From Acidobacteriota bacterium (lineage in GTDB: Bacteria; Acidobacteriota; Thermoanaerobaculia; Multivoradales; JAGPDF01), in the NCBI GenBank assembly GCA_014584695.1, contig JACTMI010000048.1, positions 1 through 51,009 on the forward strand: 51,009 nucleotides of DNA, written 5' to 3'. Positions 3,809-21,996 of this stretch are shown here, in pieces; position 1 is the stretch's first letter; every line of letters begins with the position of its first letter. A program made the position numbers and the translations under genes. The notes beneath the pieces are model-generated. The model searched no databases and had not been told where the DNA came from. It was given only the letters and a program-made list of their open reading frames with translations.

Positions 3809-4426
3809 GTGGCGGCCGTGACCCAGGGCGACATCACTTCGTTGCTCGTCGAGTGCCGCGACGAGGCGCGACGCGGGGCGGCGTTCGACCGCTTGGTGGC
3901 GCTGATCTACGACGATCTGAAGCGGCTGGCGCGCGGGCAGCTGCGGCGCTGGCGGCCGGGCTCGACGCTCGACACCACCGCGCTCGCCCACGAGGCCTAC
4001 CTGAAGCTCGCCGGCCGCGAGGGTCTCGAGCTCGCCGACCGTCAGCACCTCTTCCGCAGCTTGGCGCAGGTGATGCGGCGGCTGGTCGTCGACCACGCGC
4101 GCGAGCGGCGGGCGCGCAAGCGCGGCGGCGACGTCGAGGTCCAGCCGCTGCCCGACGACGACGCGCTGCCGCCCGAGGCGGCCGTCGCCTGGGATCCCGA
4201 CCTCGTGCTCGGCGTCGACAGCGCGCTGCGCACGCTCGCCGCCGCCGACCCGCGCGCGGTCGAGGTGATCGAGTGCCGCTACTTCGCCGGACTGACCGAG
4301 GACGAGACCGCGACGGCGCTGGGCCTGTCGCGCCGCACCGTGCAGCGCGAATGGCTCAAGGCCAAGGCGTGGCTGCGCGGCGAGCTCGGCGGGACGCCCG
4401 CGGCGGCCGTCCACCCGGGAGCATGA
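3809..4426 (+). CDS. ECF RNA polymerase sigma factor (TIGR02999/SigX6-like)
   Basis: About 205 residues with region 2 (AFDRLVALIYDDLKRLARGQ, then LAHEAYLKL and LFRSLAQVMRRLVVDHARE) and region 4 (IECRYFAGLTEDETATALGLSRRTVQREWLKAKAWL, helix-turn-helix). The combination is characteristic of the acidobacterial/planctomycete ECF group that is encoded beside protein kinases rather than anti-sigma factors. The start may be GTG 3809 or GTG 3818; the AGGGGA at 3802-3807 is properly spaced only for 3818. The stop overlaps the kinase start (ATGA), so the two are translationally coupled, and the kinase is the likely regulator of this sigma factor by inference. Confidence 0.9.
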   Translation: MAAVTQGDITSLLVECRDEARRGAAFDRLVALIYDDLKRLARGQLRRWRPGSTLDTTALAHEAYLKLAGREGLELADRQHLFRSLAQVMRRLVVDHARERRARKRGGDVEVQPLPDDDALPPEAAVAWDPDLVLGVDSALRTLAAADPRAVEVIECRYFAGLTEDETATALGLSRRTVQREWLKAKAWLRGELGGTPAAAVHPGA

Positions 4427-17583: not shown

Positions 17584-18462
17584 ATGATTTCCGTCCGACT
17601 CACCGCCAGCCTCCTCTTGCTGGCGCTCGCCGCCGCGGGCGCCGCCGCCGCGCCGTTGCGCGTCGTCGTCAGCGTCGCCCCGCAGGCCGAGCTGGCAACC
17701 AGGCTGGGCGGGGAGGCGATCGCGGTCACGGTCCTCGTGCCACCGGGCGCCGACGTCGAGACCTATGCGCCGACGCCGCAGCAGATGGCCGCCCTGGAGA
17801 GCGCCGGGCTGGTGTTCAAAGTCGGCCATCCTTCGTTCCCGCTCGAGCGGGCTTACCTCGAGCCCTGGCTGGAGCGCCACCGGGGCATTCGCCAGGTGAG
17901 CCTCGCAGCGCACGCGCGGGGCGTGCCCTCGGGCACCTCCGGTGGGCATCTGGAGGAGCACTCCGGCGAGCATGGCGATCCCCACCTCTGGGTCTCGCCG
18001 CGGACGATGCGGGGCGCGGCGCGCGAGCTGGCCGGCGCGCTGGCGCTGCTGCTCCCGGCCGAGACGGCCCGGATCGAGGAGCGTTGGCGCCGATTGGACG
18101 CCGAGATCGAGGGGCTGGACCGCGAGCTCGAGGCGCGCTTGCGCGCGGCGGCGGGCCGTGCCTTCGTGATCTACCACCCGGCGCTCGGCTACCTGGCCTC
18201 CGACTACGGTCTCGAGCAGTGGGCGATCGAGCACGAGGGCAAGGAGCCGAGCCCGGCGCGCCTGGGGCGCCTGATCGCGAGCGCCCGGCGGGAGCGGGTC
18301 CGCGTCGTGCTGGTGCAGCCCGGCATGCCGAAGCGCAGCGCCGAGCTGCTGGCGCGCGAGATCGGCGCGCGCCTGCTCGAGGTCGACCCGGTGGCGGCCG
18401 ACTGGTTGGCCAACACGCGCGCGCTCGGCGCGGCGCTCGAGGCGGCGCTCGACCGTGGTTGA
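17584..18462 (+). CDS. znuA: Zinc ABC transporter, periplasmic substrate-binding protein
   Basis: A 292-residue cluster A-I (ZnuA/TroA family) binding protein. A signal peptide (SLLLLALAAAGAAAA) is followed by VVVSVAPQAELATRLGG and the typical PPGADVETYAPTPQQM. A short histidine/glutamate-rich loop (GGHLEEHSGEHGDPHLW) ends in the DPHLW metal-site motif; further ligand regions are FVIYHPALGYLA and the C-terminal VDP. It captures Zn2+ (possibly Mn2+) in the periplasm. A GGAGGGAGG Shine-Dalgarno lies upstream of ATG 17584. It overlaps the ATPase gene by 8 nt. Confidence 0.93.
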   Translation: MISVRLTASLLLLALAAAGAAAAPLRVVVSVAPQAELATRLGGEAIAVTVLVPPGADVETYAPTPQQMAALESAGLVFKVGHPSFPLERAYLEPWLERHRGIRQVSLAAHARGVPSGTSGGHLEEHSGEHGDPHLWVSPRTMRGAARELAGALALLLPAETARIEERWRRLDAEIEGLDRELEARLRAAAGRAFVIYHPALGYLASDYGLEQWAIEHEGKEPSPARLGRLIASARRERVRVVLVQPGMPKRSAELLAREIGARLLEVDPVAADWLANTRALGAALEAALDRG

Positions 18463-19153
18463 GGCGGCGCTGGTCGCGGCGCGCGGCCTCGGCTTCCGCT
18501 ACGGCGGCGACGTCGTGCTGGCGGGAATCGACCTCGCGGTTCAGCCCGGCGACCGATTGGCGATCCTGGGCCCCAATGGTGGCGGCAAGTCGACGCTGGT
18601 GCGACTGCTGCTCGGCCTGCTCCGGCCGACGAGCGGGCGGGTGGTCTGGAGCCGCTCCCCGCGCGGGCGTCGTCTCGGCTACGTGCCGCAGTTTCCGGCC
18701 TTCGACCGCGGGTTTCCGTTGAAGGTGGCGGAGATGGTGCTGCAGGGGCGACTGCGGGAGCGCGGGCCGCTGCGGCGATTCCGTGCCGAGGATCTGGCGG
18801 CGGTCGACGCGATCCTGGCCGATCTCGACCTCGAGCCGCTGCGCGATGCCTTCCTGACCGAGCTCTCGGGCGGGGAGCTCAAGCGTGCCCTGATCGCCCG
18901 CGCGCTGGTGGGCGAGCCCGAGCTCCTGGTGCTGGACGAGCCCACGGCGTCGCTCGACGAAGCCTCGCGACGGAAGCTGTGGGCGCGCGTCGCCGCGTTG
19001 CCGGCCGCGTGCGCCGTGCTGCTCGTCACCCACGACCTCGGGCCCGGCACGTTCGCCCCCGGCCGGGCGGTGCTGGTCGACCGGACGCTCGAGCCCTTGT
19101 CGGTGCCCGACCTGCACCAGCACCCGCTGCTTTGCGGCCATGGACACGGCTGA
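18455..19153 (+). CDS. znuC: Zinc ABC transporter, ATP-binding protein
   Basis: A 232-residue ABC ATPase from GTG 18455. Walker A is GPNGGGKST, the Q-loop is GYVPQFPAFDRGFP, the signature is LSGGELKRALIARAL, Walker B is LLVLDEPTASLDE and the H-loop is LLVTHDLG. It powers metal import with ZnuA and ZnuB. It overlaps the genes on both sides (8 and 14 nt), so the three products are probably made in a coupled way. Confidence 0.93.
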   Translation: MVEAALVAARGLGFRYGGDVVLAGIDLAVQPGDRLAILGPNGGGKSTLVRLLLGLLRPTSGRVVWSRSPRGRRLGYVPQFPAFDRGFPLKVAEMVLQGRLRERGPLRRFRAEDLAAVDAILADLDLEPLRDAFLTELSGGELKRALIARALVGEPELLVLDEPTASLDEASRRKLWARVAALPAACAVLLVTHDLGPGTFAPGRAVLVDRTLEPLSVPDLHQHPLLCGHGHG

Positions 19154-19985
19154 AATGGACTCGATCGCCGGCATGTGGGAGCTGGGGTTCTTTCGTGACG
19201 CGCTGCTCGCGGGCGCGCTGGCGAGCGTGCTGTGCGGGGTCGTCGGGACGTTCGTCGTGCTGAAGCGCCTGGTCTCGATCAGCGGCGGGGTGGCGCACGC
19301 CGCTTTCGGCGGGCTCGGTGCCGCCTACTGGGCCGGCTGGGAGCCGCGCCTGGGCGCGGTGGCGGTGGCCGTTGCGTCGGCGGTCGGCCTCGGCTTCCTC
19401 GATGGCGACCGGGCGCGCCGGCAGGATGCGGCGATCGGCGTGCTGTGGGCGGTCGGCATGGCGATCGGGCTGGTTTTCCTCCACCTGACTCCGGGCTACG
19501 CACCGAACCTGCTCGGCTTCCTCTTCGGCAACATCCTCCTGGTCAGCGCAGCGGACCTCTGGCTGGCGGGTATCGCCGACCTGGCCGTGATCCTGCTGCT
19601 GGCGCTGTTCGGCCGGGAGCTCGTGGCGGTCGCTTTCGACGAGGAGTGCGCCCGTCTCCAGGGCGTGCCGGTGCGCCTCTTCTCGATCCTGCTGCTCGCG
19701 CTGGTGGCGCTGTCGGTCGTGGCGCTGCTGCAGCTGGTCGGCATCGTGCTGGTCATCGCCCTGCTGACCATCCCGCCGCTCGTCGCCCAGCGGCTGGTCC
19801 GCTCGCTGCGCGCCACGGTGCTGGTGTCGATCGCGATCTGCCTGGCCTTGACCAGTGGCGGGCTGGTGCTCTCCTACCTGCTCGACTGGCCGAGCGGCCC
19901 GACCATGGTGCTGCTCGGCGCGCTCGCCCTGGGCGCCGCGCAACTGCGGCGGCCGCGCGCGGTGCGGACCGCACTGGCAGGCTAG
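19140..19985 (+). CDS. znuB: Zinc ABC transporter, permease
   Basis: A 281-residue family 3 (ABC-3) permease with about eight to nine helices, starting near FFRDALLAGALASVLCGVVG and containing the conserved VLKRLVSISGGVAHAAFGGLG and QLVGIVLVIALLTIPPLVAQ. Its stop shares the palindromic CTAG at 19982-19985 with the stop of the convergent zur gene. Confidence 0.93.
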   Translation: MDTAEMDSIAGMWELGFFRDALLAGALASVLCGVVGTFVVLKRLVSISGGVAHAAFGGLGAAYWAGWEPRLGAVAVAVASAVGLGFLDGDRARRQDAAIGVLWAVGMAIGLVFLHLTPGYAPNLLGFLFGNILLVSAADLWLAGIADLAVILLLALFGRELVAVAFDEECARLQGVPVRLFSILLLALVALSVVALLQLVGIVLVIALLTIPPLVAQRLVRSLRATVLVSIAICLALTSGGLVLSYLLDWPSGPTMVLLGALALGAAQLRRPRAVRTALAG

Positions 19986-20404
19986 GAGGCGGTCCGGTCG
20001 CGGAGGCGCTGCGTCTCGGGCGCCGAGCACCGGGAGCAGCGGCCGACCAGGGTGATGTCGTGCTCCTCGAGGCGGAATCCGGCCGGGATCAGCTGACGCA
20101 GGTCCGGCGGACAGGCCTCGACTTCGAAGACGCGGTCGCAGATTCGACAGCGGAAGTGGTGGTGGTGGTGCTTGCCGGCCACCTCGTATCGGCTGGGCGA
20201 GCCGGGCAGCGGCACCTCCGCGAGCCAGCCCTCGTCGACGAGATGGCGAATGTTGCGGTAGACGGTGGCGATGCCGAGGCCGGGGACCTCGTGCTGCGCG
20301 GCGGCGAGGGCCTCGGCCGGCGACAGCGGCCGCGAGGCCGTTTCGAAGGCGCGGCGCAACGCGCTGCGCTGGACCGTGTTGCGGGCCGGGGCCGATGTCG
20401 TCAC
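19982..20404 (-). CDS. zur: Fur-family transcriptional regulator, probably Zur
   Basis: A 140-residue winged-helix metalloregulator starting at GTG 20404. The DNA-binding part has VPGLGIATVYRNIRHLVDEG; the dimer/metal part has KHHHHHFRCRICDRVFE and a second cysteine pair CSRC, which would form the structural CxxC/CxxC zinc site. Convergent and abutting znuABC suggests that it represses zinc uptake when zinc is replete (inferred from context). A TAGAAT hexamer on the minus strand (20411-20416) lies only 6 nt before the start codon, so the mRNA is probably leaderless. Confidence 0.85.
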   Translation of the reverse strand: MTTSAPARNTVQRSALRRAFETASRPLSPAEALAAAQHEVPGLGIATVYRNIRHLVDEGWLAEVPLPGSPSRYEVAGKHHHHHFRCRICDRVFEVEACPPDLRQLIPAGFRLEEHDITLVGRCSRCSAPETQRLRDRTAS

Positions 20405-20533: not shown

Positions 20534-21289
20534 GTGAGGATCGTTTCGCTCTGTCCGTCGCTGACCGAGCTGGTGTTCGACCTGGGGGCCGGAGCCGACC
20601 TGGTCGGCAGGACGCGGTTCTGCGTTCACCCCGCCGACCGGGTGCCTGGGGTCGCGATCTGCGGCGGCACCAAGGACCCGCGCCTGGAGCGGATCGTCGA
20701 GCTCGCGCCCGATCTCGTGCTGATGAACGAGGAGGAGAACCGGCGTCAGGACGCGGACGCGCTGCGTCGGGCCGGTCTCGCCGTCCACGCCTCGCTGCCG
20801 CGCACCGTCGCCGAGACCGCCGCGATGGTGCGCTCGATCGGCGCGGCCCTCGGCCGCCCGGAGGCCGCGTCGCGGATCGCCGTCGACATCGAAGCTCGCG
20901 CCGAGCGCGCGCGCGCCACAGCGGCATCGCGCCATCCCTGGAGCTACGCCTACCTGATCTGGCGCCGGCCCTGGATGAGCGTCTCCGACGACACCTTCAT
21001 CGCCGCGCTGCTCGGGTTGGCCGGCGGCACGAACGTCTTCGGAGGCGCCGCCGAGCGCTACCCGACCGTGACCCTGGACGAGCTCGAGCGGGCCGCCCCC
21101 CGCGTCGTCTTGCTCTCCTCGGAGCCCTATCCCTTCGACGAGCGACACGCGGGCGAGCTCGGCGAGGCGCTCGGCTGGTCCCGCGAGCGATTCCGCCGGG
21201 TCGACGGCGAGCTGCTCAGCTGGCACGGCTCGCGGACGCCGCGCGGCATCGACTACGCCGACCAGCTGGCGCGCGACCTGACCGGCTAG
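20534..21289 (+). CDS. BtuF/FhuD-like helical-backbone metal receptor protein without signal peptide
   Basis: A 251-residue protein from GTG 20534, supported by GGAGAGG just upstream. It shows the COG0614 periplasmic-binding fold: VRIVSLCPSLTELVFDLGAG at the N-terminus, ICGGTKDPRLERIVELAPDLVLMNEEENR, a long linking helix, then WRRPWMSVSDDTFIAALL and ERAAPRVVLLSSEPYPF. Family members bind cobalamin, haem or siderophores for ABC import. Here there is no signal peptide and no permease or ATPase gene beside it, so a cytoplasmic or atypical role is likely. The stop codon TAG (21287-21289) lies within the left arm of the palindromic element that follows. Confidence 0.75.
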   Translation: MRIVSLCPSLTELVFDLGAGADLVGRTRFCVHPADRVPGVAICGGTKDPRLERIVELAPDLVLMNEEENRRQDADALRRAGLAVHASLPRTVAETAAMVRSIGAALGRPEAASRIAVDIEARAERARATAASRHPWSYAYLIWRRPWMSVSDDTFIAALLGLAGGTNVFGGAAERYPTVTLDELERAAPRVVLLSSEPYPFDERHAGELGEALGWSRERFRRVDGELLSWHGSRTPRGIDYADQLARDLTG

Positions 21290-21494
21290 CCCGACCTTCT
21301 CACCAGGTTTCGTCGCGAGGCGTCGCAGATGCCTGTGGCTGCAAGGCGTCGCGACCGAGGCGCGCGCAGGCGGGCCCTACGGCCCGTCGAGCACGCCGAC
21401 CGAGCGCAACCCCCCATACAGCGGGGGGCACAGCGCAGCAGACATGGGCAGATGCGGCGCCGCAGCAGGAAGCTGGTGAGAAGGTCGGGCTAGC
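21285..21494. repeat. 210-bp palindromic element with perfect 22-nt terminal arms
   Basis: Positions 21285-21306 are the exact reverse complement of 21473-21494; both ends begin GCTAG at their outer edges. Inside are further pairings: CCCCCC/GGGGGG around ATACAGC at 21410-21428, a GGGCCC-centred palindrome near 21376-21390, a direct repeat of GGCGTCGC near 21319 and 21343, and imperfect complementarity between the two inner flanks. The whole can fold into a long branched hairpin. It has no coding capacity and looks like a dispersed non-autonomous element or structured RNA, placed exactly at a gene end. Confidence 0.75.
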
Positions 21495-21594
21495 ACGCCG
21501 CCCCCCCGTTCGGGCGGGGGCCGCCCGGTCGCCGGTCTCTACAATGAGAGGCGCGGGAATCCGACGACGCCCGACGCGTCCGGGGGCCCGATCG
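21290..21594. other. Gene-free gap: palindromic element, GC hairpin, acpS promoter
   Basis: Besides the palindromic element, the gap holds a C-run/G-run hairpin around GTTC (21501-21520) and the TACAAT box of the acpS operon (21540-21545). No further coding sequence is seen. Confidence 0.6.
21540..21545 (+). promoter_or_regulatory. -10-like element TACAAT of the acpS operon
   Basis: TACAAT directly follows GGTCTC, 49 nt before ATG 21595. An in-frame ATG at 21544 would add 17 residues, but it lies within this box and upstream of any transcript start, so the start at 21595 is preferred. Confidence 0.4.
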
Positions 21595-21996
21595 ATGATC
21601 GTCGGTATCGGGATCGACCTCTGCGAAGTCGCGCGCGTGGAGCGCGAGCTGCGCGGTGGCGGCGCCGAGTTCGCGCGGTCGCTGTTCACCGAAGCCGAGC
21701 TGGCGAGCTACCTCGGACGCGCGCGGCGCGCGGACCATCTCGCCGCGCGGTTCGCCGCCAAGGAGGCGGTCGCCAAGTCGCTGGCCCTCGACGGCTCGTG
21801 CGGGGCGGCGTGGCGGCTGATCGAGATTCTCGACGCGCCCGCGGGCGCTCCTTCGGTGCGCCTGAACGGCGCCGTCGCGACGGCGGCGGAGCGCCTGGGA
21901 GTTCGATCGATCCGCGTCGCGCTGGCAGGCGACCGCCGGCTCGCGGCGGCCACCGCGATCGCCGAAACCGAGTCGGGAGAGCGAGGGAGCGAGTGA
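21595..21996 (+). CDS. acpS: Holo-[acyl-carrier-protein] synthase
   Basis: A 133-residue phosphopantetheinyl transferase that moves 4'-phosphopantetheine from CoA to the serine of an acyl carrier protein. It begins with the canonical MIVGIGIDLCEVARVE, with Mg2+-binding Asp8, and has RFAAKEAVAKSL with Glu57. The length matches AcpS-type enzymes. It heads a run of five closely spaced genes that includes an ACP (Ser39 present), so it may serve that dedicated carrier as well as, or instead of, the fatty-acid ACP. One nucleotide separates it from the ligase gene. Confidence 0.92.
   Translation: MIVGIGIDLCEVARVERELRGGGAEFARSLFTEAELASYLGRARRADHLAARFAAKEAVAKSLALDGSCGAAWRLIEILDAPAGAPSVRLNGAVATAAERLGVRSIRVALAGDRRLAAATAIAETESGERGSE

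Follow-up and report, generated by a model that had tools for sequence, protein, structure and literature searches.

A palindrome at 21285–21494 of the 51,009-nucleotide stretch of Acidobacteriota DNA analysed here (the window) belongs to what is probably, with odds of roughly two in three, a small (about 180–204 bp) non-autonomous transposable element that depends on a folded strand for its spread. The family is dispersed, two of its members are missing from matching sites of a relative, its copies lie at a TA within a CTAG-like (YTAR) target, and one of its strands is kept able to fold into an extended rod whose internal loops are purine-rich. Non-autonomous repeats are commonly regarded as decayed insertion sequences; here the fold of one strand has been preserved by evolution while the arm sequence drifts, even between phyla.

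The palindrome is near-perfect and 210 bp long, with exact 22-nt reverse-complement arms (21285–21306 and 21473–21494, plus strand) around a 166-nt core, as the sequence-only reading had described. Comparison of copies places the element proper (G...C) at 21289–21490, between two TA dinucleotides (21287–21288, the target dinucleotide, and 21491–21492), and its R strand is the plus strand of the window. The left arm includes the flanking GC and TA. The unit shared among copies is C-TA-G...C-TA-G; of the GCTAG that had been reported at both ends, the CTAG part holds and the outermost G/C is flank that varies among copies. The apical hairpin (21369–21388, plus strand) is the counterpart of GGCGTACT...AGTACGTC in other copies, and the tip of the window copy is a GC variant, GGCGGGCC...GGCCCGTC. 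The core also contains a 24-nt insert bearing a CCCCCC/GGGGGG side hairpin (21410–21428, plus strand), found in three of the five copies of the same genome and lacking in the other two. This palindrome is real and not the product of chance: its folding energy is –80.9 kcal/mol as DNA, compared with –51.2 (s.d. 3.3) for shuffled sequences (z = –9.1), and –146.6 as RNA (z = –11.1), and none of 200 shuffles equalled the real fold, either as DNA or as RNA. The separate GC hairpin said to follow the element is present at about 21499–21522. Rfam 15 covariance models gave no match at the element in the window copy (E up to 1), and Rfam gave none at the elements of 17 loci at the gathering cut-off. 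Being shorter than 500 bp, non-coding and bounded by terminal inverted repeats, the element has the size and ends of a miniature inverted-repeat transposable element (MITE).

The genome to which the window belongs holds five full copies and one left-end half copy. Four of them are 94.6–99.5% identical to each other and the window copy is 83–85% identical to those; nine pairs have changed on both sides among these copies with pairing kept. A further weak blast match (C16, L008) was judged to be no copy. The covariance model R1, built from the five copies, matches in 27 of 59 genomes sampled from the own genus up to the own order, own genome counted, and detects no element in three congeners (G001–G003) or in most genomes of genus g6. 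The same arms are carried by named Thermoanaerobaculia and other Acidobacteriota genomes, and the copy number in related bacteria ranges from a few to more than 100. Searched singly, G014 yielded about 47 full-length loci; the 74 rows of that search also contain weaker, partial matches and loci listed again on the reverse strand. In G043 there are 206 arm ends and in G040 217. Several contigs begin or terminate within copies. The resemblance to intergenic repeats of Acidobacteria-type genomes suggested earlier is thus supported, the element being multi-copy, MITE-like, structured and intergenic.

Several variants were encountered. G043 and G040 contain 67–91-bp derivatives consisting of arms only and still flanked by TA dinucleotides (L152, L153, L155), and in G043 (C121, L154) two end-to-end copies have one CTAG in common, one element being inserted at the edge of the other. 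Locus L134 of G014 (C1:365562–365755) combines the inner part of the family with outer arms that are perfect but of quite another sequence (GGAGTCTTAGG...), and it has no flanking TA. The copies L343–L352 of G100 are recent, near-identical and nested inside a larger palindromic repeat (AAACGGCGGTTT).

Comparison of related genomes indicates that the family is mobile. Both elements of an 18-kb stretch of G014 (L232) are missing from the collinear stretch of the congeneric genome G022 (67–80% nucleotide identity), so that the empty sites expected for a MITE are seen for two family members of G014, not for the window copy. One of these elements interrupts an ORF at its first codons, and the related ORF in G022 is uninterrupted; by our reading of the alignment, removal of this element with one TA would keep the ORF in frame. 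At the boundaries of 54 copies the inner G was found 53 times and the inner C 54 times, the T and A of the TA 46–51 times, the outer C 45 times and the outer G 41 times, and the next base was near random. CTAG/CTAG flanks occurred 29 times and TTAG on both sides never. The TTAG/CTAA and ATAG/CTAA sites seem to be better fitted by a TA duplication in a YTAR target than by a 4-bp duplication, and the argument against the latter would be drawn only from such rarer sites. The flank pattern of G308, a recent burst, looks more like a 4-bp duplication. The direct repeat of the window's family is a TA in CTAG of ambiguous length (TA or CTAG), because the repeat is palindromic and TA, CTAG or no duplication give the same sequence at CTAG. 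Of the 15 copies scored in a sister family from Syntrophobacterales (20 in the set, the edge not being located in five), 11 had the same 3-mer (TAA, TTA or TGA) on either flank, as compared with a shuffled mean of 3.9; none of 20000 shuffles reached 11.

The element is a structured nucleic acid under selection. Covariation, which it had been proposed to examine on copies, was found at 57 of 77 pairs changed on both sides among the 54 copies, and amounted to 516 cells as against 161.5 in shuffled controls, in an alignment that was fitted to the structure and hence favours the signal. When the partner was slid by one to three columns, at most 111 cells were obtained and most of the signal was gone. 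Covariation is no weaker among the inner pairs than among the outer ones, and the internal loops are conserved. Among the non-Watson–Crick cells of the 54 copies, G-T exceeded A-C (263 versus 63 cells, 42 pairs versus 8, p = 1e-6). This excess indicates that folding takes place on one strand, since neither mismatch would be favoured by a process that works on the DNA duplex, although strand-biased mutation could add to it. RNA of the R strand was more stable than its complement in 26/26 copies taken one per genome and 14/14 from other phyla, and the remaining four of the six sets gave 16/16, 18/20, 8/9 and 7/9; copies from one genome are not independent of each other, and those cut by contig ends were dropped. 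Such a strand-specific fold offers a testable case for structure-guided transposition, and the covariance model can be used to annotate many unexplained intergenic repeats.

The folded core extends well beyond the Acidobacteriota. An exact scan of 84,980 genomes for the tip core CGTACTNGANGTACGTCGAGGA, which does not reach the window copy (that copy was found by R1), returned 67 stretches in 21 organisms. An Actinomycetes match (L083) looks like a chance match in coding sequence and was omitted from later work; in all the other organisms the core forms the tip of palindromes of about 100–200 bp. Altogether, 20 named organisms from about seven phyla share the tip-and-loop module, which is carried on differing arms, the groups being Geobacter, Syntrophobacterales, Myxococcales, Archangium, Spirochaetaceae, Chitinivibrionia, Carboxydocella, Phascolarctobacterium, Synergistaceae and Acidobacteriota. 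Most of these genomes are metagenome bins bearing depositor names, the exceptions being Geobacter sp. AOG1 (23 core matches) and a complete Carboxydocella chromosome (three); four bins have 135, 118, 21 and 18. As the scan required the core, its conservation in the scanned set is by construction. The pairing of the helix below it is not: 28 core-bearing stretches were folded, and in 24 sequences 85.4% of the cells of this helix pair, with 23 changes on both sides versus 9.9 after shuffling. In Myxococcales SB9155 the outer arms of L328, L334 and L338 diverge widely from those of other copies and are still largely paired. A model of the core (R2) found it in 44 of 396 genomes of the own phylum. 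In Carboxydocella thermautotrophica (L065) a copy of the core (4027–4048) lies within a run of tRNA genes (tRNAs at 3897–3968 and 4159–4231). It is tempting, if at clearly less than even odds, to see here a phylum-spanning class defined by the tip hairpin and repeated GA/GCA-type purine loops on interchangeable arms, which would move as a folded strand (RNA or single-stranded DNA) via a new enzyme, neither a classical end-recognizing transposase nor a RAYT.

No partner transposase with the ends of the element was found among the loci checked. Searches for a parent element via paired ends produced three distant candidate pairs that enclosed ordinary ORFs, and a wider end pair was found neither in 40 G014 regions nor in 31 Syntrophobacterales loci. 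The TA/YTAR and TNA targets presumably recall those of the IS630 and IS5 groups, and a rather unlikely reading, yet the one that survives best beside our own, is that of a plain MITE, a deletion derivative of such an insertion sequence that is moved by its transposase, with inner pairing either incidental or maintained by template-switch correction of quasi-palindromes at replication. It agrees with the existence of arms-only short derivatives and with the IS630-type copies of related genomes, whose target is likewise CTAG and whose first base is G (CTAGTGGACTG..., L220, L221). The IS630-type domain PF13358 was also more frequent in element-bearing genomes (8 of 16) than in element-free ones (3 of 20, one of the three below the family cut-off). 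However, the ends of L220 and L221 differ from those of the element, as do those of all IS630-type and DDE_Tnp_1 (PF01609) loci checked, the ends of these and of Y1 loci having been compared at fetched loci, a subset of the matches. Neither PF13358 nor PF01609 was found in G014, which is 99% complete and has at least 45 copies. Strand-symmetric correction, moreover, predicts neither the covariation of inner pairs, nor the conserved loops, nor the large excess of G-T over A-C, and the presence of the same core on different arms in other phyla also argues against this reading. In G043 (C14, L391) a 531-aa DDE_Tnp_1 ORF directly adjoins an element-like end, CTAGCCTGACCTTCTCA.

Improbable in our view is that the element is REPIN-like and that a Y1 transposase (RAYT/TnpA-REP) moves it in the form of folded single-stranded DNA. 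Y1 chemistry is not expected to give 3-bp duplications such as those of the Syntrophobacterales family. The Y1 domain PF01797 was present in 31 of 36 genomes irrespective of the element and was not found in G040, with its 217 arm ends, or in G058, with at least 20 copies. None of the 30 Y1 loci fetched had a core within it, so that neither a link to RAYT nor the flanking repeats expected of one were found. The accessible part of PMC3116915 describes REPINs as doublets of hairpins that show compensatory changes and are presumably mobilized in trans, and GTAG, a hallmark of REPs in the accessible part of PMC8266576, occurs just inside the outer stem on the 3' side in 32 and on the 5' side in 21 of the 54 copies; the window copy has GTCG and GCAG at these positions. 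In keeping with the chromosomal habit of REPINs, no plasmid copy was found by blastn with three family members and no viral copy by the exact core. An arm motif of G308 matched 19 viral contigs; a convincing partner end was seen in none of them.

The element lies between a btuF-like gene (Peripla_BP_2; 20534–21289) and an acpS-like gene (ACPS, phosphopantetheinyl transferase; 21595–21996), both on the plus strand. The TAG stop codon of the former (21287–21289) does lie within the left arm, the left TA and G21289 rebuilding it at the edge of the element. The idea that insertion had defined the end of this gene was not upheld by comparison with element-free homologues, whose products, measured from the start of the match to the stop, are 259 (G019, 61% identical), 252 (G011, 53%) and 244 aa long (G007, 42%), the product here being 251 aa. 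Given this similarity in length the stop codon most likely predates the insertion and is probably native. Because the first base of the element, next to the TA, is G, a TAG or TAA stop that receives the element ends up as TAG, as in the window, and the element thus shows how landing on stop codons can occur without damage to the gene. Upstream, 17584–20404 is an ordinary zinc-uptake cluster with ZnuA-like, ABC ATPase and Fur-family regulator genes, assigned by domain scan, and a membrane ORF outside that scan.

Such contacts with genes could also reflect a cis-acting RNA (3'-UTR stabilizer, terminator or processing site) kept for host genes, a possibility that we consider slightly less probable still than a Y1-moved element. 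In Myxococcales SB9155 the predicted stop codon of a gene running into the element abuts the right end in 13 of 20 copies and the left end in two (six of the 20 have no left neighbour), but relative to these genes the folded R strand is the antisense one. Of 45 elements in G014, 14 (31%) have a stop exactly at the edge, near the 26% of non-coding CTAG sites that are in-frame stops (90/342 in 702 kb scanned, element edges included, with gene calls from a simple codon-usage script and no curated annotation), so that an apparent stop-codon preference is mostly accounted for by the distribution of CTAG sites. Orientation in G014 is against the flanking genes (22 versus 7 of 45; GC skew p = 0.004, coding p = 0.006), a trend that is weak in G061 (coding p = 0.08), absent in G062 and reversed in the own genome, where four of five copies are in sense; since orientation differs among genomes, we make no general claim about it. 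The sense orientation of those four copies and the two sites empty in G022 also speak against a cis-acting RNA, and a scan of 21100–21700 detected no terminator-like site (GC stem followed by a T run). Least probable of all is a bacterial SINE-like retroelement, in which a reverse transcriptase supplied in trans would copy the R-strand RNA for insertion at a nicked TA: the strand-specific RNA-type fold with G-U pairs and the short duplications would suit it, but the perfect arms would impede copying.

We therefore return to the non-autonomous element with a folded strand. A trans-acting enzyme would make a short staggered cut (at least 2 bp here; 3 bp, at TNA, in the sister family) and insert the element, and a single-strand fold, of DNA or RNA, would be needed by any lineage that is still moving. 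If required for movement in this way, the element would not be a passive leftover of an insertion sequence. As the mover was not found, this mechanism (enzyme in trans, staggered cut and need for a folded strand) is one that we infer, and the failure to find an autonomous partner with these ends, the arms without TA of L134 and the 4-bp-like pattern of G308 weigh against it.

RUP of pneumococcus is a MITE derived from IS630 with a TA duplication. This TA duplication and a similar size class liken RUP (named in PMC2267715) to the element, for which no IS630 with its ends was found here; for RUP itself, shared structure stayed below the threshold applied in the accessible part of PMC2267715. With REPIN/REP sequences and their RAYTs, as presented in the accessible parts of PMC3116915 and PMC8266576, the element has in common that it is short, palindromic, chromosomal, extragenic and non-autonomous, with a single-strand fold and compensatory changes. 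It differs in its length of 180–204 bp and its conserved tip and purine loops, REPINs having a conserved terminal 16-mer, and also in the short duplications of one family and the failure to find a link to RAYT. We found no description of such an element class in the literature surveyed, which included the accessible parts of PMC10969869, PMC2267715, PMC3116915 and PMC8266576; until its enzyme is identified, the element remains a non-autonomous palindromic repeat, a known kind. The Chunjie MITE of Geobacter uraniireducens, compared by its description in the accessible part of PMC10969869, is likewise 178–235 bp long, with inverted ends, direct repeats and tens of copies between genes. By that description, the element reported here would be set apart from Chunjie by its GC-richness, its strand-specific fold and a core common to many phyla.
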